Positions 10,188-34,184 of a stretch of DNA of 64,000 nucleotides are shown piece after piece. The stretch's first letter is position 1. Each line of letters opens with the position of its first letter. The stretch is from Streptomyces sp. NBC_01304 (lineage in GTDB: Bacteria; Actinomycetota; Actinomycetes; Streptomycetales; Streptomycetaceae), in the NCBI RefSeq assembly GCF_035975855.1, contig NZ_CP109055.1, positions 9,982,001-10,046,000 on the forward strand, read 5' to 3'. Below the pieces are notes generated by a model that saw nothing but the letters and a program-made list of their open reading frames with translations, did not search any database and was not told the DNA's origin. Position numbers and translations under genes: made by a program.

Positions 10188-13100
10188 TTAGATGGCTCGG
10201 GCGAGGCGGGCGACGGCGGCCATGGCGACTGCTTCGGGATCGCGGGCCGGGGTGTGGATGTGGATACCGCCCACATCGATACGTGTGCCAGTCCGAGGGT
10301 TCATCTGGCCTGCTTCCTTGGTGAGGCCGGACTGTTCCATCAGTTCCTGGCGTCTGGAGCGCTTGGAGGCGGAGAGCGGAATGACGACTTCGGGCCCGGC
10401 TTCGCCGATGAGGGCGTAGGTAGGGCCGGTAACGATCGCGCCGCGTGCGAGTCCGGGAATGAAGCTCCGGAGGGCGGAGGGGATGAGGTTCTTCACGCCG
10501 TCGATCAGTGAGCGGGCGGCTTGACCGGCGATGCTGGCGAGCTGTCCGGGGAGCTGCTTGACCTTGTCGACGATCCAGGTGATGGCGGAGGTTACGGTGC
10601 GTTTCGCTGCGTCCCAGGCGCGGGTCATCAGCCCCGACAAGGCGCTTCCCAGGCCGGACAGAGCACCGGTGATCATGGTGGGCAGGCGCTTGACGAAATT
10701 GACGATCTCGGTGACCTTCGACGAAACCACCGTGTAGCCGATCTGCCAGGCCGAGCGCAGGAGGCTGCCGATCATGCTGCCCAGCGACGACAGAATCTGC
10801 GACATGCGGGAGGGCAGCTTGCTGACGAAGTCGACGACCATCGACACCCCGGCCGATACCGCGCTGACGGCCAACTGCCACGCGGACTGCATCAGCTGCC
10901 ACAACAGCGGGCCCAGTGACATCAGCACCTGGCCGATCATTCCCGGCAGCTGCCCCATGACCTGCATCATCGACGTGATCAACGCCCAGGCGGCCTGGCC
11001 GCCGGCCTGCATCAGCTGGATCGGAAGCGACGCGAATGCCATCACGATTTTCATGAGGATTTCGCCCCAACTGAACGTTGAGACGGCCTCCTTCACGCCG
11101 TCGCCGACGGCCTTACCGGCGCTGCTTCCGGCGTTCTTGGCTTCGGGGCTCTCCGTGTCTGACTTGAAGAGGCTCCCGATCCACTCGGGGATTTTCTCGA
11201 TGAACTCGACGAGCTTCGCCTGCAGGGAATCGGCCCAGCCGTTGACGATGTTGGGGATCTCGTTGGCCCACTCGCTCATCTTGCGGGTGAGGGCATCGGT
11301 CCAGCCCTTGACGATGTCGGGCAGCTTGTCCGTCCACTCGACGAGCTTGTCTGTCGCGGACTGCATCCATTCGGTGATCTTCTCGGCGATCTTCGGTGCT
11401 GCCTGACTGATCGCGTCGGCGGCGGACTGCGCCCACCTTGCGATCACCCCGGGCACCTTCGACACGAACTCCGCGAGCCGTACTGCCGCTTGCTCCACCC
11501 AGTCCTGTACGGCGGCGCCGATCTCCATGGCCTTGCCTGCCGCTGCTGCGGTGATGGACCCCACCCAGCTGGTGACCAGGCCGGGGGCGCGGACGGTGAA
11601 CTTCGCCAGCTCTGTGACGGCGCCGGGAATCCATGCGGCCACGGCCGAAGCGATCCCGGCGGCCTTGCCGCGGATGGTGCGGGCCGCCTCGATCTCCCAC
11701 ATGGCGACCGCGACGGCGATGTCCATGGCCTTGTCGCGCAGCCAGCGGGCGGCCTGCGGTGCCCAGTCGGCGACCGCCCTGCCGATGTCGACAGCCGCTT
11801 CGCCCAGGCGTCTGGTGGCGGTGAGGACCCATTCCCACACAGCGGATGCGATCCTCGGCGCAGCTTCCTTGATCGCAGACCAGGCGGTTGTAGCCCAGCC
11901 GGCGATGATGCCGGGCAGGGCGGTGACGAAGCCGCGGAGCCTCGCCCACCCCGCCGCAGTCCACTCGCCGATCAGGGAGCCGAACTGTGCGGCGTATCCG
12001 CCGATGGCCTTCAGGCCGTCCCAGATCCAGCCCGGCAGTTTCCTCGCCAACCCTGCGATGGCCTGGAAGGCTTTGGCGGTCTGCGCCTTCAGCTTGTCCC
12101 AGTTGCCGGTCACGATGGAGATCAGAATGCCGAGGGGGCCGAGGATCACGGAGACCACCAGCGGCCAGTTCTCCACGATCCAGTCGAAGGCGGCCTTCAG
12201 ACCGGACCAGATTGCCCGGCCGATCGACGCGAAAGCCGAACCTACGGACTTTGCCACTGAAACGATCTTTGACCAGGCTGTCTGCAGCCATGTGGTGCGA
12301 GTCCACACAAAGTAGATCGCGACACCGATCGCGACGAGGAGCGCCCCGATCCCGGTCGAGATCAGCACGCCCTTGACGGTGATCCCCAGGGCGATGAACG
12401 CGGCCTTCAGGACCGCGATCGCAGACGCGATCTTCGCTGCGATGAGGATGACAGGGCCGAGTACGGCCGTGAACACCAGGAACCCGGATGCGGCTGCCTT
12501 GACCGGATCGGGCAGCCGGGTCATCCACCGCACGAACGTCGTCAGGCCGCCGACAACCTTCGTGAACGCAGACAGCAGCCCGGACTCGCCGATCGAGATG
12601 GCCAGACCTTCGGCCGCCGACTTCAGTGCGGTCATGCCGCCCTTGGCGCCCTGGTTCATGGTGTCGGCCATGCGTTTCGCGGAACCCTCGCTGTCGCGGG
12701 TCGCGTCGCGCATCCTGTTGATCGCGGGCAACCCCTGATCCAGGAGGGCCGCAAGCTGGGGGCCGCCCCGGGTTCCGAACATCTTCGTGGCCTGCGCGCC
12801 GGTGATTCCGGCCTTGGCCATGTCGTAGATGACGTCGATCATCGGGCGCATCTTCCCCGACGAGTCGGTCAGCGAGACACCGAGCTTGTCGAGCTGGGTC
12901 GTCACCTTCGCCGGGGCCGACTGCAGACCCAGCAGCACGTTCCTGAGGCTGGTTCCGGCCATAGAGCCTTGAATGCCCGCGTTGCCGAACAGGCCGATCA
13001 GGGCGGCCGTGTCGGAGAATTCCAGGCCCGCCTGTTTCGCGATGGGCCCGACATACTTGAACGATTCGCCGAGCATCGAAATGTCGACGTTGGCGTTCGA

Positions 13101-13949
13101 CATGGTCTTGGCGAGCACGTCGTTGACGCGTCCGAGCTGTTCGGCCTTGAAGCCATAGCCGGTCATGATGTTCGACGTGATGTCGGCCGCCTGGCCGAGG
13201 TCCATCTGTGCGGCAGCAGCCAACTGCAGCGTGGACGGCATCGCGGCCATGATCTGGTTCGTCTTCAACCCGGCCATGCCCAAAAAGCCCATGGCGTCGG
13301 CGGCTTCAGACGCAGAGAACTTCGTAGTGGCGCCGAGCTGTTTGGCGAGGTTGTTGAGCTGAGTGAACTCGGGACCGGTGGCGTTGGTGACCGCCTTCAC
13401 CCGGTTCATACCGGCCTCGAAGTTCGAGGACATCGCGATGATCCCGGCCGTCGCAACAGCCGCCGGGAGAGACAGGTTCCGGCTGATCGCAGATCCGGCC
13501 TTCGCCGCCGCCGAAGGCCCCTTGTTGATCTCGGTGGCCATGGCCGTGCCGACAGCAGACCAGCGCTGACGCACCGTCGACGCAGCCGTCCCGAGGGCGC
13601 TTGCGATCTGCGCGCCAGCAGTGCGGGCCGTCATGGTGGCCGTGTTCCATGCGCCGGAAAGGCCGGTCGCGATAGCGGTTCCGGCGTGGGTGAGGCCGGT
13701 GCGCATGGACGATCCGAAGCCCGTCGCCGCAGTGCGCCCGGCGGTAGCGGCACGGGTTGCGGTGTCCCGGCCGAGGCGGGACCCGAACGTCGTGGCCGCG
13801 GTCGTGGCCGCAGCTGTCATTCCGGCGCGGGTGGCCGTGTCGAAAGAGCGGGTAGCGGCGGTTCCGGCGGCGCGCATCTGTGCCTGCAGCTGGGGGCGCA
13901 GTCTTCGGGTGTCGGCCAGGATTTCCACGAACGCCGTCGCGAGCGCCAC
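10188..13949 (-). CDS. Tail tape measure protein
   Basis: 1253 residues from a GTG start preceded by an AAGGAG ribosome site. This is the longest gene in the window, directly after the tail chaperones. An Ala/Thr/Arg-rich N-terminus precedes a TP901/PhageMin_Tail-type core at about residues 165-430 (FEAGMNRVKAVTNATG, ATTKFSASEAADAMGFLG, MFGTRGGPQLAALLDQG). Strongly hydrophobic segments at about 490-560 (FLVFTAVLGPVILIAAK, GIGALLVAIGVAIYFVW) are typical membrane-inserting parts. Long Trp-rich helical repeats follow up to about residue 1150. Its length sets tail length, so a tail on the order of 190 nm would be expected from known scaling. No peptidase domain was recognised. Confidence 0.93.
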   Translation of the reverse strand: MALATAFVEILADTRRLRPQLQAQMRAAGTAATRSFDTATRAGMTAAATTAATTFGSRLGRDTATRAATAGRTAATGFGSSMRTGLTHAGTAIATGLSGAWNTATMTARTAGAQIASALGTAASTVRQRWSAVGTAMATEINKGPSAAAKAGSAISRNLSLPAAVATAGIIAMSSNFEAGMNRVKAVTNATGPEFTQLNNLAKQLGATTKFSASEAADAMGFLGMAGLKTNQIMAAMPSTLQLAAAAQMDLGQAADITSNIMTGYGFKAEQLGRVNDVLAKTMSNANVDISMLGESFKYVGPIAKQAGLEFSDTAALIGLFGNAGIQGSMAGTSLRNVLLGLQSAPAKVTTQLDKLGVSLTDSSGKMRPMIDVIYDMAKAGITGAQATKMFGTRGGPQLAALLDQGLPAINRMRDATRDSEGSAKRMADTMNQGAKGGMTALKSAAEGLAISIGESGLLSAFTKVVGGLTTFVRWMTRLPDPVKAAASGFLVFTAVLGPVILIAAKIASAIAVLKAAFIALGITVKGVLISTGIGALLVAIGVAIYFVWTRTTWLQTAWSKIVSVAKSVGSAFASIGRAIWSGLKAAFDWIVENWPLVVSVILGPLGILISIVTGNWDKLKAQTAKAFQAIAGLARKLPGWIWDGLKAIGGYAAQFGSLIGEWTAAGWARLRGFVTALPGIIAGWATTAWSAIKEAAPRIASAVWEWVLTATRRLGEAAVDIGRAVADWAPQAARWLRDKAMDIAVAVAMWEIEAARTIRGKAAGIASAVAAWIPGAVTELAKFTVRAPGLVTSWVGSITAAAAGKAMEIGAAVQDWVEQAAVRLAEFVSKVPGVIARWAQSAADAISQAAPKIAEKITEWMQSATDKLVEWTDKLPDIVKGWTDALTRKMSEWANEIPNIVNGWADSLQAKLVEFIEKIPEWIGSLFKSDTESPEAKNAGSSAGKAVGDGVKEAVSTFSWGEILMKIVMAFASLPIQLMQAGGQAAWALITSMMQVMGQLPGMIGQVLMSLGPLLWQLMQSAWQLAVSAVSAGVSMVVDFVSKLPSRMSQILSSLGSMIGSLLRSAWQIGYTVVSSKVTEIVNFVKRLPTMITGALSGLGSALSGLMTRAWDAAKRTVTSAITWIVDKVKQLPGQLASIAGQAARSLIDGVKNLIPSALRSFIPGLARGAIVTGPTYALIGEAGPEVVIPLSASKRSRRQELMEQSGLTKEAGQMNPRTGTRIDVGGIHIHTPARDPEAVAMAAVARLARAI

Positions 13950-19678: not shown

Positions 19679-19706
19679 AGCGTGTTCACCCCCTCCTTCT
19701 CGGGGA

Positions 19707-19762
19707 GGGGCCCCGCCTCGCCACCACGGGGGGAGGTGGCATGCACGATGAGGCGGGGCCCC
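19707..19762 (-). terminator. Terminator or attenuator after the major capsid gene
   Basis: A perfect 13-bp inverted repeat (GGGGCCCCGCCTC / GAGGCGGGGCCCC) encloses a smaller GCCACC/GGTGGC hairpin in the 100-nt gap between the capsid gene and the next head gene. Such a structure can end most transcripts after the highly expressed capsid gene. Confidence 0.7.
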
Positions 19763-19778
19763 GGCCTAGAGGTGGGGG

Positions 19779-21749
19779 TCAGGCTGCGGGGCAGATCAGG
19801 GCGGCGTTGTCGGGTCCGCCCGTCATGCCGTTCGGGCAGAGATCGATCTGCAGCATCCGCGCGTCACCGCAGCGCGTCTGCAAGCAGTACGCCTCTTCCG
19901 TGAACAGGGAGATCATCTTGTTCTGCCCGAGAAGGGTGGAGTCGTAGATCCCACCGTCGAGATTCAGGATGTCCTGGCGGGCCTGGATGAAGTACCCGGC
20001 CGTGTACAACATGATCTTCGCGGTGGAGGGCCAGGTGGTGGCCTTCGGGTCGATGTTCTGCCAGTCGTACACGTACTGCGGGCGGATACCGCGCGAGGTG
20101 AACCAGGCGTTGATCCGGGAATCCGGTACGTCGATCAGGTCAACGCCGGTCCGCTTGGCCAGGTCGGAGCGGATGATGCCGGGCAGCCAGTACGGCATGA
20201 CCGCTTCCAGCGTCGAGCCGCGGGACAGGCGGTGCTTGTACCGCATGTCCTCAACCATGACCTCGATCGCACCCAGCAGTCCGGCCGTCGCGCCCGGCCC
20301 GTAGGCAGCCTGCCCGGCGGAGAACGGGATCGGCTCTGCGGCAGGCTTGGCGGCGTCTTCGAGGTGGCCGGTCTTGGGGTCGATCTGCCGGCCGGTCTGC
20401 CCCTTGAGCAGGGCCTGCTGGCGGTCGACGGCGGCAGCGAACTTATAGATCTCCGATGCGGGGATCTTCGCTTCCATCCGGGCCAGAGTGTCCGCGTTGA
20501 TCAGGTGCTGGTGAGCGACCAACAGGCGGGCGATCCACTCACGGATCAGCTCGGGCCACGTGTGATTAAGCATGATATCGGTCTTAATACACAGACCTCG
20601 GGGCGTAAGCCTGCACTCTGCCCATTCCGGACAGGGGATTTCGAGGCAAGGCTTCGGATTATCAGCCCGCGCCTGGTCCTTCTCCTGCTTCGTCTTCTTC
20701 GGGTCGAAGAGCGTCTTGCCGGGCTCCGGGCGGTCCTTGAGGAGTCCACCCGGGTTCGGGCCCTTCGACGGGTCCGACATGGGAAGGTCGCCCCAGTCCC
20801 AGATACCGCCGCCCAGCTGCGTGTACACGTCCGTGAAGGACGGGGTGATCGGCCAGCGCAGCCCGCCCCGGCGCACAGTGATCGCCGGAACGTCCACGAT
20901 GCCATCCAGCGACGCGAGGTCGGGGCACAGGGTATAGATCGTCTCGCTCGGAGAACACCAGATGTCGGTGGCCGGTGCGCCCCCCACACCGGTGGCGGCG
21001 ATCAGCGAACCGTTCGTGAGACGCCGCTCGTTGGTGGCGTGCTCGATCGTCTTCCACGTCTCCGCATCCGACGATCCGTCCGTCACCAGCGACGGATCCC
21101 GGTCCAACGTGAACTGCGCGATATGGACGCCCGAACTGCCCGACGGGATACGGCCCAGAGCAGTCATCCGGTTCTGCGCCGCCTCGGCAACCGCCGTCAG
21201 GTCGGTGAGGCGCTGGCCTGCCGGGGTGTTGGGAATGTCAGCGGCGGCGATCATCGACCAGCCGGTTTCCACAACGGTGCCGGTCTTCACGTCGTCGTTG
21301 CGCATCCGCCCGAACGGAACCGCCGCCTTCGACGCGGCCGCGACCGGCACCCGCTCATCGGCAACCGGCGTGGTCTCGGCAGGCGCAGCGTCAGCAGCCG
21401 GAGCGTCTTCGGTGACCGGATCCGGCGCCGGGGGAGTGGTGGGTGCGTTCGGGGCCGGGGTAGAGGCCTGCTCGACTTCTTCGGCCAGACTCCGGATCCG
21501 GTCCGCGCGGGCGGCAGCCTCTACACGCCGGTTGGTGACGGACTTGATGATGTTGGCAAGCTGCTCAAGCTCCACCAGCTCGGCATCCGTACGGTCGCCG
21601 TCAGCCTCATGCAGCGCCTTGAACGCTTCCGTCGCCGACTTCTGAACGGCTTCGAGGTCATCGGCTGCGGACAGCTGGTCGTGGAGGGCCTGTGCGGCGT
21701 CGTCGGCTTCGGCGAGCTTTCCGAGCAGATCCCGGATATTCACGGTCAT
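19779..21749 (-). CDS. Major capsid protein with N-terminal coiled-coil extension
   Basis: The ATG at 21749 (MTVNIRDLLGKLAEADDAAQ) gives 656 residues, roughly twice a minimal HK97 subunit. Residues 1-90 are helical and acidic like an HK97 delta or scaffold domain. Residues 95-145 are a Pro/Ala-rich linker, where a maturation protease could cut. The shell domain follows, with TLEAVMPYWLPGIIRSDL and YVYDWQNIDPKAT near the C-terminus. About 70 residues (about 335-405: PSKGPNPGGLLKDRPEPG, then KPCLEIPCPEWAEC) look like an insertion with two cysteine pairs. Terminators flank the gene on both sides, so it is probably transcribed on its own at high level. Confidence 0.85.
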   Translation of the reverse strand: MTVNIRDLLGKLAEADDAAQALHDQLSAADDLEAVQKSATEAFKALHEADGDRTDAELVELEQLANIIKSVTNRRVEAAARADRIRSLAEEVEQASTPAPNAPTTPPAPDPVTEDAPAADAAPAETTPVADERVPVAAASKAAVPFGRMRNDDVKTGTVVETGWSMIAAADIPNTPAGQRLTDLTAVAEAAQNRMTALGRIPSGSSGVHIAQFTLDRDPSLVTDGSSDAETWKTIEHATNERRLTNGSLIAATGVGGAPATDIWCSPSETIYTLCPDLASLDGIVDVPAITVRRGGLRWPITPSFTDVYTQLGGGIWDWGDLPMSDPSKGPNPGGLLKDRPEPGKTLFDPKKTKQEKDQARADNPKPCLEIPCPEWAECRLTPRGLCIKTDIMLNHTWPELIREWIARLLVAHQHLINADTLARMEAKIPASEIYKFAAAVDRQQALLKGQTGRQIDPKTGHLEDAAKPAAEPIPFSAGQAAYGPGATAGLLGAIEVMVEDMRYKHRLSRGSTLEAVMPYWLPGIIRSDLAKRTGVDLIDVPDSRINAWFTSRGIRPQYVYDWQNIDPKATTWPSTAKIMLYTAGYFIQARQDILNLDGGIYDSTLLGQNKMISLFTEEAYCLQTRCGDARMLQIDLCPNGMTGGPDNAALICPAA

Positions 21750-21806
21750 GCGGGTCGTCTCCTGCAACGTCGACCACACCCGCATGTCGGGGTGTGGTGG
21801 GGGGTT

Positions 21807-21889
21807 GCAAGAGCGCCGCTCACGTAGTCGGGTCCCGCGCTACACGTTCAGTTATGGGGCAAGAAGCCCGCTCACATGTCGGGTCCCGC
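21807..21889. repeat. Two imperfect ~31-bp direct repeats upstream of the capsid gene
   Basis: Copies at 21807-21838 and 21859-21889 share GCAAGA, CGCTCAC and GTCGGGTCCCGC, with start-to-start spacing of 52 nt. A weaker half-copy (CGCATGTCGGGG) lies at 21781. They fill the region between an intrinsic terminator and the capsid start, so they are candidates for activator or repressor sites in a capsid promoter. Confidence 0.6.
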
Positions 21890-21910
21890 CAGATGATGTT
21901 GATGGTAGCC

Positions 21911-21947
21911 CAGCCCCCTTGAACACTGCCGGTGTTCAAGGGGGCTG
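21911..21947 (-). terminator. Intrinsic terminator between the biosynthetic cassette and the capsid gene
   Basis: Perfect 16-bp stem (CAGCCCCCTTGAACAC / GTGTTCAAGGGGGCTG) with a 5-nt loop, lying 14 nt after the stop of the small membrane protein gene. It should stop transcription arriving from the polyketide cassette before the capsid gene. Confidence 0.8.
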
Positions 21948-21960
21948 TCTCTGCCGGGTC

Positions 21961-22116
21961 TTACGCGTCGACGTCACCAGACGTCGGCGCGACGCGCTCT
22001 GCCGGCTTCCTGGCGGGCAGATGCCGGAGCCCGGCCTTGAATCCGGCCTGGATCAGATCCCACAGGATGAGTCCGACCACGACTGCGATGGCGGTGTCCC
22101 AGTTGATGCTGTCCAC
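21961..22116 (-). CDS. Small single-pass membrane protein (51 aa)
   Basis: A GTG start at 22116 has an AAGGAGA ribosome site 7 nt upstream. The product is one hydrophobic helix (WDTAIAVVVGLILWDLIQAG) followed by a basic tail (KAGLRHLPARKPAER), giving a predicted N-out, C-in membrane protein. It is the last gene before the 16-bp terminator and follows the SnoaL-like gene by about 105 nt. A holin-like, membrane-anchor or phage accessory role is possible; nothing specific was recognised. Confidence 0.6.
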   Translation of the reverse strand: MDSINWDTAIAVVVGLILWDLIQAGFKAGLRHLPARKPAERVAPTSGDVDA

Positions 22117-22221
22117 GATGGTTCTCCTTGTCTTGGTGTGGTCGCCGCGGTGAAGAGCGCGGCGGTGAGTTCGGCCAGGTTCAGGGCGCACTCTGTTCCG
22201 TTAAGGAACCGGGCGGTGCGT

Positions 22222-22569
22222 TCAGGTGATGAGCGGGGTGCCGGTGTAGGCGTTTTCCCAGTGCTCAACAATCAGCCCGTCCCTGAAGCGCCACAGGCCG
22301 CATACCGGCACGTTGATGCGGTCGGGAAGGTCGGCGGTGAGGGTGCCGGTCATCGTGCCGAAGTGCTTGCCTGCGGTGAGGTGGTCGACGGTGATGCGCA
22401 TGGTGTTCTTCGACAGGCGCATCAGCGCCTTCTCGTGCGTCACGACGGCCTTGATGCCGGTCAACGTGTGGCCGTCGACCCGGTGCAGCACAACATCGGG
22501 GTCGAGGAACGGTTCGATGCCGGTCAGGTCGGCGTAGACGGCGGCGAGGGTCAGCGCGTTGGGGTGCAT
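22222..22569 (-). CDS. SnoaL/NTF2-like protein in the polyketide cassette
   Basis: The ATG at 22569 lies 1 nt after the reductase stop and gives 115 residues. The fold signature is clear: an N-terminal helix ending in FLDPDVVLHRVDG, a middle helix (GIKAVVTHEKALM), and the final strands CGLWRFRDGLIVEHWENAY, the C-terminal pattern of SnoaL/NTF2-like proteins. Family members include polyketide cyclases, hydratases and ligand-binding proteins. Together with the upstream synthase and reductase it would act on an aromatic polyketide. Cyclase versus binding role cannot be told from sequence alone. Confidence 0.8.
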   Translation of the reverse strand: MHPNALTLAAVYADLTGIEPFLDPDVVLHRVDGHTLTGIKAVVTHEKALMRLSKNTMRITVDHLTAGKHFGTMTGTLTADLPDRINVPVCGLWRFRDGLIVEHWENAYTGTPLIT

Positions 22570-22570
22570 G

Positions 22571-23491
22571 TCAGGCCTCCGTAGCGGTGGTGGGGCGCCA
22601 CGGGGCGAACTTCGCGCAATGGGCCTCAACGCGCTGCCAGTCCGCCTCCGACAGGTCGACGGCGAAAGCGCGCATGTTGTCGTCGAGATGCGCGATCGAC
22701 GTAGTCCCGGGGATCAGCAGCGTGTTCGGTGCCACCCGCAGCAGCCAGGCCAGGGCGAGGGGTGCGGCGTTCACCCCGAAGTACGGGGCGATCTCTTCGA
22801 GATGGCCGATGAGTTCGCCGTGCCCGAGGGGGAACCACGGGATGAACACGATCCCGTTGTCGACCGCGTAGTTGAGGGTGGGGCGGGCGTTCTGGTCGGC
22901 GAGGTTGAACAGGCACTCCACTGCCACGATGTCCGCGTGATGCGCCGCCACATCCAGCTGATCGGGCGGCACGTCAGGCTGACCGGACAAGCCGATGTGG
23001 CGGATCTTCCCTGCCCGCTGCAACTCGACCAGGACACCGAACTGCTCCTCCAGCGGAACGAGCGGGTCGATGCGGTGCAGCTGGTACAGGTCGATCGTCT
23101 CGACGCCCAGGCGCAGCAGACTGACCTCGACTTGTTGGCGGAGGTATTCGGGGCGTCCGAGGGCCTGAATGTAGGGGGCCCGGTCATCGGAGTGGACCCA
23201 GTCGTCTGGGCCGGTGCGGAGCATGCCGCCCTTCGTGGCGATCACCAGCTGCTCGGGGTACGGGTGCAGGGCCTTGCGGATGAGTTCTTCGTTGTAGCCG
23301 GGCCCGTAGGAGTCGGCGGTATCAATGAACGTCACCCCCGCCTCATGCACCGCATACCTGAGGAGACGGATAGCCGCTTCGTGGTCGGCGGGCGGCCCCC
23401 ACATGCCGGGGCCGGTCAAGTGCATGGCGCCGTAGCCGATACGGCCAACGGTGTTGTCGCCGAGACGCAGCGTGGGAGGAGAAGTGTTCAT
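22571..23491 (-). CDS. Aldo/keto reductase of the polyketide cassette
   Basis: 306 residues with the complete AKR catalytic tetrad: Asp57 and Tyr62 in FIDTADSYG, Lys87 in ATKGG, His139 in LYQLHR. The C-terminal NADP-binding stretch LLIPGTTSIAHLDDNM is also present. These enzymes are cytosolic NADPH-dependent carbonyl reductases on a TIM barrel. The start overlaps the synthase stop by 4 nt (ATGA), so it is translationally coupled to it. It probably reduces the polyketide product or an oxidised derivative such as flaviolin; that substrate is inferred. It is normal length and looks intact. Confidence 0.9.
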   Translation of the reverse strand: MNTSPPTLRLGDNTVGRIGYGAMHLTGPGMWGPPADHEAAIRLLRYAVHEAGVTFIDTADSYGPGYNEELIRKALHPYPEQLVIATKGGMLRTGPDDWVHSDDRAPYIQALGRPEYLRQQVEVSLLRLGVETIDLYQLHRIDPLVPLEEQFGVLVELQRAGKIRHIGLSGQPDVPPDQLDVAAHHADIVAVECLFNLADQNARPTLNYAVDNGIVFIPWFPLGHGELIGHLEEIAPYFGVNAAPLALAWLLRVAPNTLLIPGTTSIAHLDDNMRAFAVDLSEADWQRVEAHCAKFAPWRPTTATEA

Positions 23492-24543
23492 GCGTCCTGC
23501 CAGAGGGAGAGGGAAGCTTCGGCGGTGATGCCGGGACCGAACCCGGCCAACAGGCCCCGCGCACCATCGGCCGGGGGATCGTCGAAGAGGCGGGCAGCGG
23601 TCGCCAGCACCACGCAGGAGGCGATGTTCCCGCAGCTCTCCAACGTGGCACGGGAGTTCGCGAACGCCTCAGGATCCACGTTCAGGTGGAAACACAAGTC
23701 GTCGAGGATGCGCGGGCCGCCGGCATGGATGACGTAGTAGTCGAGCTTCGTCGCATCCCACTGCTCGGCCTGGGCCAACGTGTGGAGCATGGGGGCGAGC
23801 ATCGACATGGTGCCGGGCACCCGCTTGTCGAGCTGGAAGTGCCAGCCGGTGTCCTTGACCTTGTAGCTGATCCAGTCTTCGGTGTCGGGAACGAGGTGGG
23901 CGGCGCCGCGTACGAGGCGCATGCCGCGCCCGTTGCCGTCACCGCGGACCACGCAGGCGGCCATGGCGTCGCCGAACAGTCCGTCCGAGAGCAGCGACCC
24001 GACGTCGATGTCTGATGGCTGGTAGACGAGGGAGCAGAATTCGACGGCGACGACCAGGACGTGAGAGCCGGGGTGCGCGTTCGCGTAGTCGTGGGCGCGG
24101 TTGATCGCGGCCCCACCAGCCGCGCACCCGAGTTGAGCGATCGGGATTTGCGTGGTGTCGGGCCGGAAGCCCAGATTGTTGATCATCCAGGCGGTGAGTG
24201 GCGGCATCGTGAACCCGGTACACGACACGAACACGATCGCCGACACCTCATCGGCGCCCACCCCCGCGCTGGCGAGAGCATCAGTCACCAGCTGGGGCAG
24301 CTGCGTCTTCGCCGTCTCGGTAAAGACCCGCGTACGTTCCTCCACCCCGTCATGGCGCAGCGTCTGATAGAGCGGCCTGATCAGATGCCGCTTCCGCACA
24401 CCCGTATTGCCGATCAGCCGCGCCGCCAACGCATGCTGCGGATGATCGGCGTGCATGACGTCGGCGAGGGCGAGGGTCTGTTCCCGGCTGATCGTGTGCG
24501 GCGGCAGCCACACGGCCGGACGGCACAGGACGGCGCCTGTCAT
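23488..24543 (-). CDS. Type III polyketide synthase, RppA-like (tetrahydroxynaphthalene synthase)
   Basis: The ATG at 24543 (MTGAVLCRPAVWLPPHTISR) overlaps the stop of the phage gene upstream (TGATG) and gives 351 residues, normal for the family. The chalcone-synthase-fold triad is intact: Cys140 in QLGCAAGGAAINRAHDY, His273 in YVIHAGGPRILDDL, Asn306 in ESCGNIAS. The Gly-rich C-terminal loop GFGPGITAE is also present. Cys108 (SCTGFTMPPLTAW) matches the cysteine linked to malonyl starter use in bacterial RppA. RppA joins five malonyl-CoA into 1,3,6,8-tetrahydroxynaphthalene, which oxidises to flaviolin and pigments. The exact chain length is inferred. It is embedded between phage head genes, which is highly unusual. 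Confidence 0.93.
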   Translation of the reverse strand: MTGAVLCRPAVWLPPHTISREQTLALADVMHADHPQHALAARLIGNTGVRKRHLIRPLYQTLRHDGVEERTRVFTETAKTQLPQLVTDALASAGVGADEVSAIVFVSCTGFTMPPLTAWMINNLGFRPDTTQIPIAQLGCAAGGAAINRAHDYANAHPGSHVLVVAVEFCSLVYQPSDIDVGSLLSDGLFGDAMAACVVRGDGNGRGMRLVRGAAHLVPDTEDWISYKVKDTGWHFQLDKRVPGTMSMLAPMLHTLAQAEQWDATKLDYYVIHAGGPRILDDLCFHLNVDPEAFANSRATLESCGNIASCVVLATAARLFDDPPADGARGLLAGFGPGITAEASLSLWQDA

Positions 24544-24758
24544 CAGCTGTTGTTCCCGGGGTCGAAGGGTTCCCACGATCCGGTGCCGGCCATCGCGATA
24601 GCGGCGTCGGCTTGCTGCCAGGTGTCGAAGACGGACTTGGAGCCGTCGTGGAACGTCACCCGGTATTTGACGGGGCGTCCGTCGTGGGTGACGGTCTCGG
24701 TCTCTCCGCCCTGGGTGACGCGGGTGGTGTACCGGGGTGAGGATCCGCAGCAGCCCAT
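24543..24758 (-). CDS. Small CGS-type phage protein (71 aa)
   Basis: 71 residues beginning MGCCGSSPRYTTRV and containing a short beta domain (VKYRVTFHDGSKSVFDTWQQ, then ADAAIAMAGTG). Similar small proteins with an N-terminal CCGS and an F-x-D/G-K-x-F hairpin are frequent beside head genes in actinophages. It overlaps the protease stop at one end and the polyketide synthase start at the other (TGATG both times). It is therefore the phage gene to which the biosynthetic cassette is coupled. Confidence 0.65.
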   Translation of the reverse strand: MGCCGSSPRYTTRVTQGGETETVTHDGRPVKYRVTFHDGSKSVFDTWQQADAAIAMAGTGSWEPFDPGNNS

Positions 24759-26164
24759 CAGAGGTTTCCTCCGAGCTTCAGGGCGGCGTCCACGCGGGCT
24801 TTCTGCCATGCGGCTTCGGTCTGGCGGACCTGTGCGGCCAGCGTGGCGGCAGTGTGGCGGCGTGCGGCCAGGGCGTCCATTTCCTCGAGGAGTTCCGCGG
24901 CGAGGGCCTTGGTGTCCACGGTCGCCGTCGTCGTGGGCGCGGGCCGCCAGGCGGTGGAGATGAACGTGGTGAGGCGCTGGCTGGTGCCGTACGCGTAGGC
25001 CCGCTGGCGTGGAATCTTGATGGCCGGGTTGTTCGTGGCGAGGGCGGCGATGAGTTCGGTGTGGCCGCCGACTTCCCTCCAGTCCCCCGACAGTGGGGAG
25101 CGGCGTAGCTTCGCGGCCATCTGCTCGTCCGCTTCGGGGGTGAGGGCTCCGGCGAGCCAGATGCCGTGCGCGTCTTCTCCGGCACGCACGATGGCAACCG
25201 CGTTGCCGGTGTCGGCGTAGTGGGCGGATGCCCGGTGTGCGGACAGGGGGATGTCGGCGTGCGGGGTGTCGAGGCAGATGGTTCCGACGGGGAGGGTGTC
25301 GCCTTCCTCGGTGAGGACACTGCCCAGGTGAAAGAACTGGTAGCCGCTTGAACTGCGGGGTGCGTAGCGGCCGTTGGAGACGTGAGCGCGCCGCCAGTCG
25401 GCGAGATGCCCGAATACGCGGCCGTCGTCGGTGACTGTGATGCCGGTGGGTTCGGTGAGCTGTGGGTCGTCGAACCATGCCTTCGGCGGGGCCACGGGCG
25501 TGCGGGGGCTGGCGGCGGCGATCAGGGCATGTGTTGCACTGGCAGCCGTCTTCTTCTTGGGCCTTGGATTCTTAGACGCCACTCGGGGCTTGTCTTTCGA
25601 ATCGTCGGAATCATCGCCGTCGTTGTCGTCGTCTGTGTCGCCCCGGGCGCCGTCGTCGTCCTGGTCTTCGTCTTGGTCGTCGTCGGTGGGGCGGCGGGAG
25701 CGGATCCGGTCCCCTTCCGCGAAGGCGGGGTGTCCGACCAGGGTGGCTCCGGCGACCTTCCAGCCGGTGAACACTTCCACCAGCTGCCCGTCCTCGTCCT
25801 CGTCGATCTCGAACGCGGACGGGTCCAGATCCAGCGATGCCCAGCCGAGATAGCCGCGCTCCACCTTCGAGGCAACGGCCTGCGCCTGTGCGTCCATCGG
25901 GTCGTAGCGGCCCGCCCCCCACACCACCGTGTCTCCGGAGCCGTCCGATGCCTCCCGGTACTCAAGGTGGTCGATCAACCCGATGGCGATGGCTCCGTCG
26001 TGTCCGGGGGCGGCCTTCTCCTGCCAGTACAGCGGCACGGGCAGCGGGCGTGCGTCGAGTGTGCTCTGGGCGGCCAGGCGGCGCCCGTCAGCGCTGTTGC
26101 GGTCGACGCGGCCCAAGGGTCCTTCCCAGTATTCGATGACCTGGGACTCAAGTGCTGTGGCCAA
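24758..26164 (-). CDS. Head maturation protease (prohead protease fusion)
   Basis: 468 residues. The N-terminal ~170 residues follow the actinophage capsid maturation protease pattern (AIAIGLIDHLEYREASDGSG, RGYLGWASLDLDP, GWKVAGATLVGHPAFAEGD). A very acidic Asp-rich linker (about 172-195) is followed by a basic patch (KNPRPKKKTAAS), which may act as an internal scaffold. A second domain (about 215-400) and a C-terminal coiled coil (LAAELLEEMDALAARRHTAA) complete it. It lies between MuF and the capsid, as in HK97-like phages. No separate scaffold gene is seen, so this protein and the capsid N-terminus may share that job. Confidence 0.7.
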   Translation of the reverse strand: MATALESQVIEYWEGPLGRVDRNSADGRRLAAQSTLDARPLPVPLYWQEKAAPGHDGAIAIGLIDHLEYREASDGSGDTVVWGAGRYDPMDAQAQAVASKVERGYLGWASLDLDPSAFEIDEDEDGQLVEVFTGWKVAGATLVGHPAFAEGDRIRSRRPTDDDQDEDQDDDGARGDTDDDNDGDDSDDSKDKPRVASKNPRPKKKTAASATHALIAAASPRTPVAPPKAWFDDPQLTEPTGITVTDDGRVFGHLADWRRAHVSNGRYAPRSSSGYQFFHLGSVLTEEGDTLPVGTICLDTPHADIPLSAHRASAHYADTGNAVAIVRAGEDAHGIWLAGALTPEADEQMAAKLRRSPLSGDWREVGGHTELIAALATNNPAIKIPRQRAYAYGTSQRLTTFISTAWRPAPTTTATVDTKALAAELLEEMDALAARRHTAATLAAQVRQTEAAWQKARVDAALKLGGNL

Positions 26165-26170
26165 AATGGG

Positions 26171-26965
26171 TCACCTTCTTCGGGAAGACCCGCCCGGAGA
26201 GGGCAGGAGGAGTGGGGAGTCCTTGTCGAGTTCCAGCAGCACGCACCGGCAGTGGATCGTGGTCCCGGGTGAGCCGTTGGGATCTCCGGGGTAGCGGAGC
26301 ATTTCCCCGCCCACCAGGAACGGGGTGCCGGTGGGTACGGTCTGGTAGTTCGCCATCCGGTGCGCGGCGCGGGTGCGGCCGTCCATCGTGGAGCGCCACT
26401 GGGACTGCGAGCGGATCCCGGTGAGCTTCTGCCACGCCGTTGCCCCGTCCAAGGTGGCGGCGTTGTATCCGGCGACCGATTCGGTGACGGCTGTTGCGTT
26501 GATCCACCCCGCCCAGGCTTCGACGTTGAGCAGTGCGAGGAGCTGTTCCTCGCGCTTGGCGGTGCGCGGCATGGCCAGCAGTGCGCGCAGGGCGGCGGCG
26601 ATCCGGTCGGGAAGTTCCGACTCGGCCAGACGCTTGCGTACCTGGGCGAGGAACAGGGGCCTGGAGGTGTCCGGGCTCATGCCCGCGGTCTGCTCCGTGT
26701 ACTGCTCGTCGTAGGCGGCGCCCAGCGGCGGAAGCATGTATGTGTCGACGCCGTCTTCCCATGAGGCGGCGCCGTGGGTGGCGGCCAGAAGCGGCAGGCT
26801 GGTGGCGAAGGTGCCGTCGGGAGTTCCGGTCCACTCATGGAGAGAGAGCGTGTCGGGGGCGCGCTGCAGGTAGGTGCCCACCAGCTGCCGGGCGGCCCTG
26901 GCCAGCGTGGTTTCGGTGCGGCCGATTTTCCGGTGCGCCCGGTCAAGGGCCTGGTCGTCGCTCAT
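26171..26965 (-). CDS. MuF-like minor head protein
   Basis: 264 residues with the MuF C-terminal signature: GIRSQSQWRSTMDGRTRAAH, then FLVGGEMLRYPGDPNGS and IHCRCVLLEL. The N-terminal half is helical. MuF proteins sit on the portal or inside the head and are often ejected. It overlaps the portal stop by 4 nt, the canonical portal-MuF order. No toxin domain is attached to this copy. Confidence 0.88.
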   Translation of the reverse strand: MSDDQALDRAHRKIGRTETTLARAARQLVGTYLQRAPDTLSLHEWTGTPDGTFATSLPLLAATHGAASWEDGVDTYMLPPLGAAYDEQYTEQTAGMSPDTSRPLFLAQVRKRLAESELPDRIAAALRALLAMPRTAKREEQLLALLNVEAWAGWINATAVTESVAGYNAATLDGATAWQKLTGIRSQSQWRSTMDGRTRAAHRMANYQTVPTGTPFLVGGEMLRYPGDPNGSPGTTIHCRCVLLELDKDSPLLLPSPGGSSRRR

Positions 26966-28767
26966 GCCGCATGCCCGGCCTGCTTGAGCGCGGCGTGCAG
27001 GGCGCGCCGTCGGTGCGGCAGGCCGGAGACGAGCAGGTGCCGGGTGTAGGCGTCCAAGGTGTCGACGACCGTGCGGGGAAGCCGGTCACGGACCGTGTCC
27101 CACACTCCCGACAACAGGTCGTCGACCTGGTCGTGCTTCGGCGACCACACGGTGTGCACATCGTGTGATGGCATCCGGCCCAGCGTGGCCGGTGCGCCAG
27201 GACGGTGCCGTCTGCGCTCGCCGGCCTTCTCCAGGGCGTGGAGGACGGCCATGTCGGCGAGGACGGCATAGCCGGACGGCTTGTTGGTGCCGTCCTCGAG
27301 TTCGGGTGGCCTGCTGGGCTGGTCGGGCAGCTCCCGGTTCTCCCGGTCCGGGAGCTGCCCGCCGTCCTCTGCTGCCCGCTCCACCTGGACGCTGCCGGGC
27401 CCGTCAGCGGGGGCCGTAGAGGTATCGATGCCGAACTCGTTCAGGACGAGTGGGGCAAGTTGGGGGATGTGGGCGAGGTCCCACAGCAGTTGGTCGCGGC
27501 GTTCTTTGGTGGTGGGGTAGTCGCTCTCGCCGAATCCGCGTTCGCGCAGGAGGGCTTCGCGGGAGATGAGGCCCTTGTCGTAGAGGGTTTGGGCCTCTTC
27601 GATGGTGGTGGACTGGTCGGTGAGATCTTGCGTGTTCGCTGCGAGTACGTAGCCGTCGGGATCAATGCCCGCTTCGAGGAGCATCGGCGCGAGGAACGCT
27701 TCGGTCAGTGCGTGGCAGATCAGGGAGAGTTCCGGCTTGACGTGCAGGTCTACGGCCTGCCGGTTCAGGAGCCAGCCGGTCCAGTGGTTGACGTCGGCCA
27801 TGCCGAGGATGATTTCGGGTGGGACGTCCATGCCGAGGGCGAGTTTCCGCAGGGCCATTTCGGCGAGTTCCGCGGTGCGTTCGTCGAAGGGTGTGGAGAA
27901 GCGGAGGTGTTCGAACTTTCCGGTAGCGGCATCGTCGACGCGTACGACGATGGGGACGACGGCGGAGGCGTCCTCGCGGTTGTTCATCGGGGTGACCATG
28001 GCGCGGGTCATCTCGGCGATGAACGGGTCGTCGTGAACGTCCTCCGCTGCCTGCTGCGGGCTTGCGGGCAGAACGGTCGCGGACTCGGGGACGATGAGCA
28101 TGCCGTTGCCTGCGAGGCGGGAGTCGACTTCCGCCAACACGCGCTGGTCTAGGGCGCAGAGTTTCGCCAGGTCGGTCTGCAGGGCGCGCGTGGGCGAATC
28201 GGCCTGCCAGTTCTGTCGCGGGTGCGGGCGCCAGATGCGGGCGACCATGGAAGCTTCGGGGTCGAGCTCGATGCGTTCGGTCTCACCGACCTGAAGGAGG
28301 GTGCGTCCGGCGCGGACGGTGATCTCGTCCGAGCAGACGGCCCGCCACTGCGCGGTGCCGGACTGGGAGTCGTCCCAGCCGACGAGGAACGTTTCGCCCG
28401 GGAGGGCGAGGTGGGTGGACATCCGGGTGAGGAGTTCGGACTGCCCGGCCTGCCCTCCGGCGAGCGTGGCGAGGATGCTGTCCAGTCGCGGATCGTCGTC
28501 GGCGGGTTCGGGGTCGCCGTTGCCGGTGGGGTCTTCGCGGCCGATGTAGAGGCGGGCCCGGGAGCAGGCTTTGGCTTTCCAGTCGATACCGAACCTGAGC
28601 GGGCCGACCTGGTCGTAGTAGGCCCACACCTTGTGTTGCCAGTCCTGGGGGCGCACAGCGGTGCGGATGGACTTCTGGTCGATCAGTGCGGCGGAGGCGA
28701 TGAGGGCGCGAGTGGCGCGCTGCGCGGGCTGGGTGCGGGTACGGAATGACAGGCGCGGCAACGCCAC
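26962..28767 (-). CDS. Portal protein
   Basis: 601 residues from a GTG start. A basic N-terminus is followed by the portal wing and stem regions (FGIDWKAKACSRARLYIG, LALPGETFLVGWDDSQ), a clip-like central part (LRFSTPFDERTAELAEMALRKLALGMD, DVNHWTGWLLNRQAVD), and a long helical C-terminal extension. The pattern NHWTGWLLNRQAV is typical of actinophage portals. The dodecameric portal is the DNA gate and docking site for terminase. Placement before MuF and protease supports the call. Confidence 0.88.
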   Translation of the reverse strand: MALPRLSFRTRTQPAQRATRALIASAALIDQKSIRTAVRPQDWQHKVWAYYDQVGPLRFGIDWKAKACSRARLYIGREDPTGNGDPEPADDDPRLDSILATLAGGQAGQSELLTRMSTHLALPGETFLVGWDDSQSGTAQWRAVCSDEITVRAGRTLLQVGETERIELDPEASMVARIWRPHPRQNWQADSPTRALQTDLAKLCALDQRVLAEVDSRLAGNGMLIVPESATVLPASPQQAAEDVHDDPFIAEMTRAMVTPMNNREDASAVVPIVVRVDDAATGKFEHLRFSTPFDERTAELAEMALRKLALGMDVPPEIILGMADVNHWTGWLLNRQAVDLHVKPELSLICHALTEAFLAPMLLEAGIDPDGYVLAANTQDLTDQSTTIEEAQTLYDKGLISREALLRERGFGESDYPTTKERRDQLLWDLAHIPQLAPLVLNEFGIDTSTAPADGPGSVQVERAAEDGGQLPDRENRELPDQPSRPPELEDGTNKPSGYAVLADMAVLHALEKAGERRRHRPGAPATLGRMPSHDVHTVWSPKHDQVDDLLSGVWDTVRDRLPRTVVDTLDAYTRHLLVSGLPHRRRALHAALKQAGHAA

Positions 28768-28780
28768 AACCAGACCCCCT

Positions 28781-31516: not shown

Positions 31517-31531
31517 AGCGGTCTCCTGATG

Positions 31532-32663: not shown

Positions 32664-34184
32664 TCAGTACAGGCCCAGCCGTACCGGACCCACCACACCC
32701 GGAACCTGCGACGTCGACACCCCTACCGCAGAACCCATCGCACGCCCCGACCGCGGCGCCTTCAACAAGTCCCACGCCATATGTACCGACGCGTCAATAC
32801 GTCCCGGACTGTCCGGAGATCCGGGCATGAACCCGCACCACTCATCGACGAGTTCAGGCATGTACGCCCCGAGCCGGATCCGGTCCTCGGCCAGTGCCTG
32901 AGCGATGGGCTCTGCCCGCAACACCTTCGACTTCCGCGACACCACACCGTGCAGATACGGCTCCGGCCGGTCGTACGGGTTATCGCCATCAGCCAGGCTC
33001 CAACTGCTCCTGAGCGCCGCCCATGAGGTTTTGATGACCGCCCGCACCTGATCGCCGCCATAGTTCTTCTCATAGACCACCCGGTCCGCGTCAATTTCCG
33101 CGACCAGCTCACAGACCAAGCGAGCCCACTTCTCCGTGGGCATCACCGCAGTCAAGTCATGCGTCCACCACAGCCGTCCGTCCGTTGCCATGTGGCCGCC
33201 GACGATGCCGCAGGTGTCCCGGCCGCCGCCGGACGGGTCGATCGCCACGGCCGCCCGTACTACCCCGGGTGATCCTCCGGGATGGGTCTGGCGTTCCATC
33301 AACTCATCCGTGACCAGGGCTCCTTCACGGGGTTTCGGGTTGCCCATGTAGAGGGCTCCCCAGTCCCGCGGCGTGGATTCTGAACGTCGGTCGGCCCAGT
33401 AGGCGCGCAGCTGATCCGTGTCGTCGGGGAGCTTGGGGTGCGGCAGCGGAACCCCGGGGGCACGCCCGAGAGGATCGGCGCCGCCGGTCAGTGCGTGGTC
33501 GGCGAACGCGGGCAGGTGGATGACTTTCCACCGCCCGCCGTCTTCGGTACGGCCCTGGCGTTTCAGGACACGTCCGGCCAAGTCGTCAGGATGCCAGCGT
33601 GTCTGGATCAGACAGACCGGCGCCCCGGGGGAGAGGCGGGACAGTGCCGTGGAAGACCACCAGTCCCAGACTGCGTCGCGCAGACGCAAAGAGTCAGCTT
33701 CCGCCCGGTCCTTGTGGGGATCGTCGCAGATCAGCAGATCGGCACCGTGTCCGGTGAGCCCTCCGCCGACACCTGTGGCACGCAGGCCGCCTCCCGTCGT
33801 GGTCCACCAGTCGGCTTTGGTCGTTGAGCCTTCTGCCATGGTCAGGTTCCAGCGTGCCCCGTGCTCCCGCACGATGCGGCGGGCGGCTACCGAGTGCGTC
33901 AGCGCAAGATCTTTGCCGTAGGCGGCGATGACGACGCGGTGTCGGGGATGGTTTGCCATCCACCACACGGGCAGATGGATGGCCGCAAGCTCGCTTTTTC
34001 CTGCGCGTGGCGGGGTGGTGATCAGCAGCCGGTCATAGTCCGAGCCCAGCCGGGCCAGTGCTTCTCCGATGTGCAGGGTGTGGGCCCGCAGCTGGAACGC
34101 CCGGTCAATGCTTTTCGCAAGAAATGCTGGGTTGTCCCAGGCCAGTGCCCGCTGAGTGAACTCGACATCATCAGCCAGGTTCAA
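32664..34184 (-). CDS. terL: Terminase large subunit
   Basis: 506 residues with all hallmarks of TerL. The Walker A-like motif is TTPPRAGKSELA (about 56-67), Walker B is DLLICDDPHK (about 149-158), and a coupling motif QTRWHPDDLAGRVL follows (about 194-207). The C-terminal RNase-H-like nuclease begins at AAVAIDPSGGGRD (Asp316). It packages DNA into the prohead through the portal as an ATP-driven motor. The start overlaps the small-subunit stop by 4 nt. Confidence 0.95.
   Translation of the reverse strand: MNLADDVEFTQRALAWDNPAFLAKSIDRAFQLRAHTLHIGEALARLGSDYDRLLITTPPRAGKSELAAIHLPVWWMANHPRHRVVIAAYGKDLALTHSVAARRIVREHGARWNLTMAEGSTTKADWWTTTGGGLRATGVGGGLTGHGADLLICDDPHKDRAEADSLRLRDAVWDWWSSTALSRLSPGAPVCLIQTRWHPDDLAGRVLKRQGRTEDGGRWKVIHLPAFADHALTGGADPLGRAPGVPLPHPKLPDDTDQLRAYWADRRSESTPRDWGALYMGNPKPREGALVTDELMERQTHPGGSPGVVRAAVAIDPSGGGRDTCGIVGGHMATDGRLWWTHDLTAVMPTEKWARLVCELVAEIDADRVVYEKNYGGDQVRAVIKTSWAALRSSWSLADGDNPYDRPEPYLHGVVSRKSKVLRAEPIAQALAEDRIRLGAYMPELVDEWCGFMPGSPDSPGRIDASVHMAWDLLKAPRSGRAMGSAVGVSTSQVPGVVGPVRLGLY

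Follow-up and report, generated by a model that had tools for sequence, protein, structure and literature searches.

Within the head operon of a prophage, between the gene of the head-maturation protease and that of the major capsid protein, three enzyme genes are present, encoding a type III polyketide synthase (PKS) of the RppA type, an aldo/keto reductase (AKR) and a SnoaL-like protein. It is a little more probable than otherwise that this cassette is a bacterial module, likely captured whole in the pre-capsid slot of the prophage, and that it is made together with the portal and protease genes, giving a reduced, dehydrated polyhydroxynaphthalene during phage expression.

The window, that is, the whole stretch of 64,000 nucleotides that was analysed, lies within a 10.66-Mb contig, one of the four in the assembly. 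The prophage is about 66 kb long and is located in the chromosome, likely of a Streptomyces. No repeat longer than 17 bp was found between its ends as an attachment site, and there is one 12-bp candidate. All the features described below are on the minus strand, including the large terminase (32664..34184; PF03237, PHROG 38) and the tape measure protein (10188..13949; PF10145, 4.4e-50). Upstream of the cassette, in the same operon, are the portal protein (26962..28767; PHROG 776 portal protein, 1.7e-140) and a MuF-like head morphogenesis gene (26171..26965), which matches PHROG head morphogenesis and 'portal protein' families, and Pfam Phage_Mu_F under its cut-off. These are followed by the head maturation protease (24758..26164), named after PHROG 18402 'head maturation protease' (4.7e-50); several relatives carry the annotation of a maturation protease at this position. 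The stronger PHROG matches of this gene are to an unnamed family (4.5e-80) and, as the best named one, to a family called 'portal protein' (2.6e-71), which is also matched by the MuF-like gene.

Next comes a small gene of 71 aa (24543..24758), which starts with MGCC and whose best PHROG match has an E value of merely 0.077. It likely corresponds to the small cysteine gene found behind the protease in relatives, as judged by its N-terminal cysteine pair and its position, matched in 12 of the 14 annotated relatives and in further loci. The PKS gene (351 aa; 23488..24543, from the ATG at 24543 to the stop at 23488), the AKR gene (306 aa; 22571..23491; PF00248, 208 bits) and the gene of the SnoaL-like NTF2-fold protein (115 aa; 22222..22569, ATG at 22569; PF12680, 45 bits when a longer 135-aa reading was scanned) are all open, and their order and flanking phage genes are as the initial annotation had described them. 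Beyond the cassette are a 51-aa ORF (21961..22116) with one membrane helix by eye, no Pfam match and a best PHROG E of 0.017, and a perfect 16-bp inverted repeat (21911..21947), which separates the cargo from the major capsid gene (656 aa; 19779..21749; NCBIfam NF033847, 446.9 bits against a cut-off of 75; PHROG 777). The region 21749-22222 has an RNA folding z of -4.26, and strong hairpins are found at the position of the repeat in several relatives, not in all; the repeat is possibly an attenuator or a processing site. The order of protease, small cysteine gene and capsid is that of an actinophage protease-capsid lineage with the PHROG 777 capsid, and the host-type enzyme genes have phage genes on either side, as is expected of phage auxiliary metabolic cargo.

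In this actinophage lineage, the interval between protease and capsid is a variable slot for cargo. Among 80 related IMG/VR loci, 69 could be measured, and the gap exceeds 900 bp in 36 of these. In one related prophage (G010), the slot holds a murC gene that is 96% identical to the chromosomal murC of its host, and is therefore a recent capture; in another locus (G002), it holds a pentapeptide-repeat gene. It had been supposed that the cassette occupies the place of a scaffold gene. This was not supported, as the place is taken in relatives by the small cysteine gene and other DNA of varying length; no scaffold is annotated at this place in the relatives viewed, and there is no sign of a displaced one. 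Apart from the question of expression, the interval can be read as a cargo slot, and a scan of actinophages should uncover more captured enzymes, murC being one.

The cassette is a bacterial three-gene module and not an invention of the phage, as its three genes are adjacent, on one strand and in the one order that is also seen in bacteria. The same genome carries a second copy in the same order (C1:3229706-3232202; PKS 67%, AKR 67% and SnoaL 48-50% identity), near relaxase and tyrosine recombinase genes. The same order is found in G108 (66, 69 and 47%, respectively), L009 (M. simulans), L019 (Luteimonas) and L084 (Streptomyces sp. TRM70350), while L024 has the three genes in a different order. 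Overall, the bacterial modules share about 60-67% (PKS), 60-69% (AKR) and 44-50% (SnoaL) identity with the phage copy, and they differ from it in lying in bacterial contexts. A further sign of linkage is that 14 of the 64 AKR matches listed share their longest-contig size with one of the 120 PKS matches listed, as counted by eye and then recounted.

The synthase looks intact. It has the Pfam chalcone synthase N and C domains and FAE1_CUT1_RppA, and the catalytic triad C140, H273 and N306, together with Cys108, is present at the positions given by the initial annotation. C108 is invariant in 10 of 10 aligned proteins and presumably corresponds to the second active-site cysteine, Cys106, of the S. 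coelicolor enzyme. The best solved structure is 1u0m, matched over the full length (E 2.6e-135, 454.6 bits; next structure 131.4 bits); this is the S. coelicolor RppA, or 1,3,6,8-tetrahydroxynaphthalene synthase, although its PDB record is titled a putative polyketide synthase. The phage PKS shares the catalytic Cys, His and Asn and the extra Cys108 with RppA, but it is phage-borne and lacks the C-terminal tail present in most of the nine relatives aligned. Its identity to the relatives among the matches listed is at most 67%, and it still keeps the triad and 123 of the 126 near-invariant RppA columns, so the enzyme is diverged yet constrained, and apparently functional. Among 121 other RppA-type proteins, the median misses none of these columns and seven miss at least three. 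The unusual residues of the phage PKS at such columns, F234W, F269Y and G346S, could alter the product.

The genome has three further PKS homologues (61-67% identity), and an origin of the cassette PKS as a recent copy of a host RppA was rejected because the best in-genome identity is 67%. In the PKS tree, the phage PKS pairs with P0021, its closest relative among the matches listed, from a 22,555-bp metagenome contig; both have long branches, of which the tree program warns. No sign of P0021 being a second phage copy was seen, as no contig of its size occurs with the 120 protease relatives listed out of 517. The phage AKR falls inside the AKR clade of the module, on a long branch and without a resolved place. 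In disagreement with the PKS tree, its partner there is not the AKR from a contig sized like that of P0021.

The AKR residues D57, Y62, K87 and H139, which we take to be the AKR tetrad, are invariant in eight of eight aligned sequences, and the protein is 59-67% identical to the seven module AKRs in the alignment. The AlphaFold2 model of the SnoaL-like protein (pLDDT 89.5) has a fold that matches ketosteroid isomerase (KSI)/SnoaL; the matches listed include SnoaL, KSI, limonene epoxide hydrolase and TerC, among others. Scytalone dehydratase is absent among the matches listed in either fold comparison, so the protein is not put forward as one; the NTF2 fold agrees with it. An AKR-SnoaL_2 fusion occurs in one metagenome protein (P0164). 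In fungal dihydroxynaphthalene-melanin synthesis, a tetrahydroxynaphthalene synthase, a reductase and an NTF2-fold dehydratase act in turn. The cassette has the same succession of enzyme types, the likeness here being one of predicted functions, but the fungal pathway uses a type I PKS and a short-chain reductase (SDR), whereas the phage has a type III PKS and an AKR. The pairing of a reductase with an NTF2-fold protein suggests that tetrahydroxynaphthalene, once made, is reduced and dehydrated. Thus, of the product proposed earlier, namely tetrahydroxynaphthalene, flaviolin or a melanin, the RppA-like synthase stands, while its partners suggest a reduced or dehydrated product instead of these plain ones.

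Integration of the cassette at the level of translation holds for one junction. The PKS start overlaps the stop of the 71-aa gene (TGATG), and this is the only phage-specific overlap. The four-base overlap of the AKR start with the PKS stop (ATGA) is present in three of the six other module copies compared (G108, L084 and L019; not L094, L009 and L024), so it was probably inherited and is no evidence of phage integration. By eye, the PKS has no ribosome-binding site of its own. Neither a sigma-70 type promoter nor a T-tailed terminator turned up on the cassette strand in a scan of 19500-28900 that covered one promoter type, so a transcript shared with the phage genes is a prediction. The opposite strand is used by seven of the 20 cargo ORFs scanned in related viral loci, so a position in the slot need not imply co-expression. 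In codon usage, PKS and AKR tend towards the late genes of the phage, with overlapping phage and host distributions, and SnoaL is near neutral.

What was observed directly is the order of the genes, the conservation of the active sites, the occurrence of the module in bacteria, this genome among them, and the variability of the slot; the favoured course of events builds upon these observations. The module would have entered between the small cysteine gene and the pre-capsid hairpin, displacing nothing. It would be transcribed by readthrough from the upstream late genes, and the PKS translated by re-initiation from the 71-aa gene. The PKS would turn malonyl-CoA into 1,3,6,8-tetrahydroxynaphthalene, the AKR would reduce one ring and the NTF2-fold protein would remove water, much as in fungal dihydroxynaphthalene-melanin synthesis with another reductase family. 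In the least certain step, the product, once oxidised, might be a quinone or pigment and serve to protect the infected mycelium or to act on neighbours. Counted against this explanation are the single phage carrier, the weaker constraint on SnoaL, the overlapping codon usage and the indirect case for the transcript, as well as F234W/F269Y/G346S, the opposite-strand cargo of relatives and the disagreement of the AKR and PKS trees. A wider proposal is put forward tentatively, being possible but on the doubtful side: that a temperate actinophage has a reductive naphthalene polyketide pathway of its own, an analogue of melanin synthesis built from bacterial enzymes, within its particle-building operon, by way of a capsid-boundary slot where the phage family repeatedly acquires host metabolic genes. 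If expressed, the cassette would give a virus a natural-product pathway of several steps linked to its virion genes, widening the view of phage effects on host chemistry.

The other virus records searched provide no close parallel. Four IMG/VR scans, three with a PKS query and one with an AKR alignment, found no relative. In the phage collection, there was no SnoaL match, and the sole PKS match was the synthase of Streptomyces phage ZL12. A type III PKS in a phage is thus not new in itself. However, the distant ZL12 enzyme (31% identity) lies in a different place, beside a regulator and with other neighbours, so the cassette PKS does not belong to its type. The ZL12 synthase and the PhlD-type PKS of Streptomyces plasmids are 31-36% identical to the cassette enzyme and lie beside a regulator, and the stretches viewed around them show no annotated AKR or SnoaL; on plasmid NZ_CP109332, about 40 kb separate a PKS of the PhlD type from a related capsid gene. 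Biosynthetic genes were reported in 13 of 2112 actinobacterial prophages, and type III PKSs only in prophages from plasmids (PMC10023795); the cassette is likewise prophage-borne, but chromosomal and in a head operon. The literature searched contained no described example of such a polyketide cassette in a phage head operon, in line with the initial annotation.

Neither the other virus records searched nor the related phage loci examined contain the three-gene set. This single occurrence favours a rather unlikely alternative, in which the module was caught by chance in a tolerant slot and is useless to the phage, its frames not yet decayed. The unrelated genes that the slot holds in relatives, including the recent murC copy, also fit, and so does SnoaL, whose phage gene looks to be under weaker constraint (dN/dS about 0.69 when set against the second copy, and 0.26 between L094 and L084). 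Against it stand the preserved columns and catalytic residues of the diverged PKS and a similar constraint on the AKR; dN/dS against the second in-genome copy is about 0.31 for PKS and 0.35 for AKR, with dS near saturation. If it took place inside the phage, such divergence is too long for an unused gene, although it may predate the capture. Absence from related phages together with an inactive enzyme had been named as pointing to a one-off insertion without phage function; the absence was seen in the loci examined, whereas an inactive enzyme is not what the sequence suggests.

Prophage-borne biosynthetic genes are often regarded as cargo that benefits the host. Expression of the module in the lysogen instead of the lytic cycle, with a product of use to the host, would agree with this and with the same module lying in bacterial chromosomes near a relaxase and a recombinase. 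It is nevertheless improbable, given the lack of a promoter-like site in the above scan, the overlap of the PKS start with the stop of a head-operon gene and the three other PKS homologues already in the genome. A mis-join of bacterial module DNA into the prophage is extremely unlikely even though the cassette is found in one genome only, as the window lies inside a single large contig, the coding frames join with base precision at the 71-aa gene, the second in-genome module, being merely 67% identical, is not the source, and, as a weaker point, the protein lists give two contigs for the PKS and one, of 3,363 bp, for a shorter but identical AKR reading.

In the literature searched, no description of the RppA-AKR-SnoaL module or of its product was found, and the module offers a small, testable bacterial pathway. 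By eye, some of its copies have additional neighbours, namely a methyltransferase in L094, and an FAD oxidase and an SDR in L084.

The cassette lies on the minus strand and comprises an RppA-type type III polyketide synthase (PKS; 24543-23488), an aldo/keto reductase (AKR; 23491-22571) and a SnoaL-like NTF2-fold protein (SnoaL; 22569-22222). The initial annotation had described these three genes from the sequence, and a check of the ORFs, domains and order in the window bears it out. The best solved structure for the PKS is 1u0m (454.6 bits; next structure, 131.4 bits), the tetrahydroxynaphthalene synthase of S. coelicolor. When 5.8 billion proteins were searched and the 7,998 candidates richest in shared words were scored, identity to relatives was at most 67%, self excluded, among the 120 matches listed of the 1,722 that reached E 1e-100. 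An alignment that included 121 others (119 listed matches and two further PKSs of the same genome) gave 126 columns with conservation of at least 98%. The phage PKS keeps 123 of them and departs at F234W, F269Y and G346S; in a leave-one-out control, the median other PKS misses none, and 7 of the 121 miss three or more. By its sequence, the phage PKS is thus diverged but constrained. The AKR keeps, in alignment, the four residues of the AKR tetrad. The structure model of SnoaL (pLDDT 89.5) has a ketosteroid isomerase/NTF2 fold. Among phage-borne biosynthetic genes, the cassette is a real and unusual cargo that is probably functional.

The cassette occupies the interval between the head maturation protease gene (26164-24758) and the major capsid gene (21749-19779). 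This gap was compared with that of 13 annotated phages and plasmid pSTRVI02 of S. violaceusniger. The protease annotation is not universal in these relatives, and where the upstream gene carries another label (hypothetical in Margaery, pSTRVI02 and PIS 136, 'portal' in OSmaximus, 'RNA ligase' in Nordenberg and MuF-like in Arbiter), it was taken by position. The 14 relatives have gaps of 295-1,021 bp; in the window the gap is 3,008 bp. In 12 of the 14, the interval holds a small gene whose product has two paired cysteines at its N terminus. The 71-aa MGCC gene of the window fits this gene by position and start; no PHROG profile matches the 71-aa gene well. Extra genes were also observed, namely an RNA ligase in Clown and an HNH endonuclease in OSmaximus and Nordenberg, all on the protease side of the small gene adjoining the capsid gene.

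In the genus survey, a related capsid was found at E 1e-15 or better in 7 of 101 genomes, the source genome included. Six capsid loci from five of these (G002, G010, G085 twice, G090 and G102) were compared, and G067 was represented by its plasmid counterpart (L105). In two of the six, cargo separates the small gene from the capsid gene: a pentapeptide-repeat protein in G002 and MurC in the prophage of G010 (L154:7946-9355; G010 C2:6183949-6185355). This MurC shares 96% identity with the murC of the G010 chromosome and represents a host gene captured recently into the position that the cassette has in the window.

The slot was further viewed in IMG/VR, where the 80 top-ranking of 522 capsid relatives were taken. 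These include near-duplicates (e.g., L187/L188, L212/L213, L217/L218 and L228/L243) and a match to the G002 prophage (L171; capsid identity 100%). Positions for protease as well as capsid were obtained at 69 of the 80 loci, and 65 of the 69 hold a small gene fitting the cysteine pattern, which is a loose one applied without a chance control. With start codons set by rule, the gap exceeds 900 bp in 36 of the 69 loci and 3,000 bp in 13. A scan of 20 among the longer cargo ORFs gave Pfam matches at E 0.01 or better for 13; those of the L192 amidase and the L215 Stealth CR2 fall short of the cut-off that Pfam sets. The domains include tail-fibre type, receptor-binding propeller, amidase, TROVE/VWA, integrase, Stealth CR2, Ig-like, RTX repeat, polysaccharide lyase and endo/exonuclease/phosphatase; none of the 20 matched a PKS. 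Seven of the 20 and the capsid gene are on different strands. Opposite-strand TROVE/VWA (Ro-like) proteins occupy this capsid-side slot in two viral contigs, at L206:2517-4136 and L237:2514-4145.

The three genes also occur together in bacteria. The source genome carries a second copy (C1:3229706-3232202) with the order unchanged and identities of 67, 67 and 48-50% for PKS, AKR and SnoaL, respectively. Since a relaxase and a tyrosine recombinase lie nearby (L094:3267-14582, C1 ~3.225-3.237 Mb), this copy is probably on a mobile element as well. Among 80 PKS loci kept of 108 in genome contigs, viewed with flanks of up to 6 kb, some ending at contig ends, a close AKR and a SnoaL homologue are linked at four (L009, L019, L024 and L084). 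In the genus survey, AKR at E 1e-95 or better was found in 2 of 101 genomes, the source genome and G108, and G108 holds the complete module; when 14 window proteins were compared with the 17 kb around it, only the three cassette proteins matched. Matched by eye and recounted, 14 of the 64 AKR matches listed have a longest contig of the same length as that of one of the 120 listed PKS matches; the pairs include P0122, the top AKR match besides self, with PKS P0021. A metagenomic protein of 456 aa (P0164) is an AKR fused to a SnoaL_2 domain. The four-base PKS/AKR overlap is present in G108, L084 and L019 and absent in the second copy (L094), L009 and L024. The bacterial modules and the recurrence of this overlap thus indicate that the module probably entered the phage as one unit, overlap included.

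Some type III PKS relative is found in 194 of 72,556 plasmid records, 13 of them at 60-80% identity. Three plasmid PKSs were viewed; two are inside larger clusters without the AKR-SnoaL pair, and one is of the PhlD type. In phage ZL12 and a Streptomyces plasmid of similar size (L100, L104), a type III or PhlD-type PKS comes after a regulator. Another plasmid, NZ_CP109332, has a PKS of this kind ~40 kb from a capsid gene that belongs to the window phage's family. The IMG/VR scans gave no match to the cassette PKS or AKR in other viruses, and queries with PKS and SnoaL found no other cassette among 50,697 phage records. Among the open-licence papers listed by literature searches, none was seen to describe a type III PKS associated with a phage or with capsid genes, or an RppA-AKR-SnoaL module. 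One report gives putative biosynthetic clusters in 13 of 2,112, with type III PKSs restricted to plasmid prophages (PMC10023795). Another describes annotated prophage genes as mostly of replication and capsid functions, a metal-uptake gene being an exception (PMC9903846), and no phage-encoded polyketide pathway was found in passages of a third (PMC12360287).

Codon usage and selection bear indirectly on use of the cassette by the phage. The codon score per codon is +0.015 for PKS, +0.020 for AKR and -0.003 for SnoaL, the mean being 0.013 for phage late genes (sd 0.016, n=23) and -0.016 for host genes (sd 0.026, n=47), with the second copy at about -0.02. PKS and AKR therefore score closer to the late genes of the phage than to those of the host or to the second copy, but the distributions overlap. 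Against the second copy, with synonymous sites near saturation, dN/dS is ~0.31 for PKS, ~0.35 for AKR and ~0.69 for SnoaL; the last value counts against strong constraint on the SnoaL gene.

By eye, the PKS lacks a ribosome-binding site of its own, and its start overlaps the 71-aa gene at the stop codon, so re-initiation from that gene would be the natural reading of its translation. The 71-aa gene in turn overlaps the protease stop. Between cargo and capsid lies a perfect 16-bp inverted repeat (21911-21947), and the predicted fold of 21749-22222 is more stable than that of shuffled sequences (z -4.26). Strong hairpins, called without a shuffle control, occur at the same place in several relatives and are absent in others. 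Because a scan of the cassette strand found no T-tailed terminator, the repeat is regarded as a possible attenuator or processing site. Given the start/stop overlaps upstream and the hairpin before the capsid gene, the cargo would form the tail of the portal-protease transcript.

The product of RppA is tetrahydroxynaphthalene, and reduction followed by loss of water is known from scytalone dehydratase and TerC. TerC is among the fold matches of the SnoaL model. As the AKR adjoins an NTF2-fold protein and is once found fused to it, the AKR might reduce the RppA product, from which the NTF2-fold protein would then remove water.

The window corresponds to C1:9982001-10046000 of a 10.99 Mb genome in 4 contigs. 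The late region of the phage, with genes for terminase, portal, MuF-like protein, protease, capsid and tape measure, runs on the minus strand from ~44.5 kb down to ~1.8 kb; a few short plus-strand ORFs, at 35.0-36.4 kb and 0.7-1.6 kb, are the exception. An integrase (L106:18483-19595; PF00589, PHROG 1) is ~66 kb left of the right-hand switch to host-like genes near 44.9 kb. The prophage ends are approximate, since the search for an attachment repeat there gave nothing convincing, only a 12-bp candidate. In the terminase-portal interval (29454-32528), several proteins look, by eye, repeat-rich and fibronectin-like, and this is an unusual location for such genes. The GC content falls from 0.62-0.74 at 44-61 kb to 0.53-0.58 at 61001-64000, and the latter stretch is possibly a further foreign island beyond the prophage.
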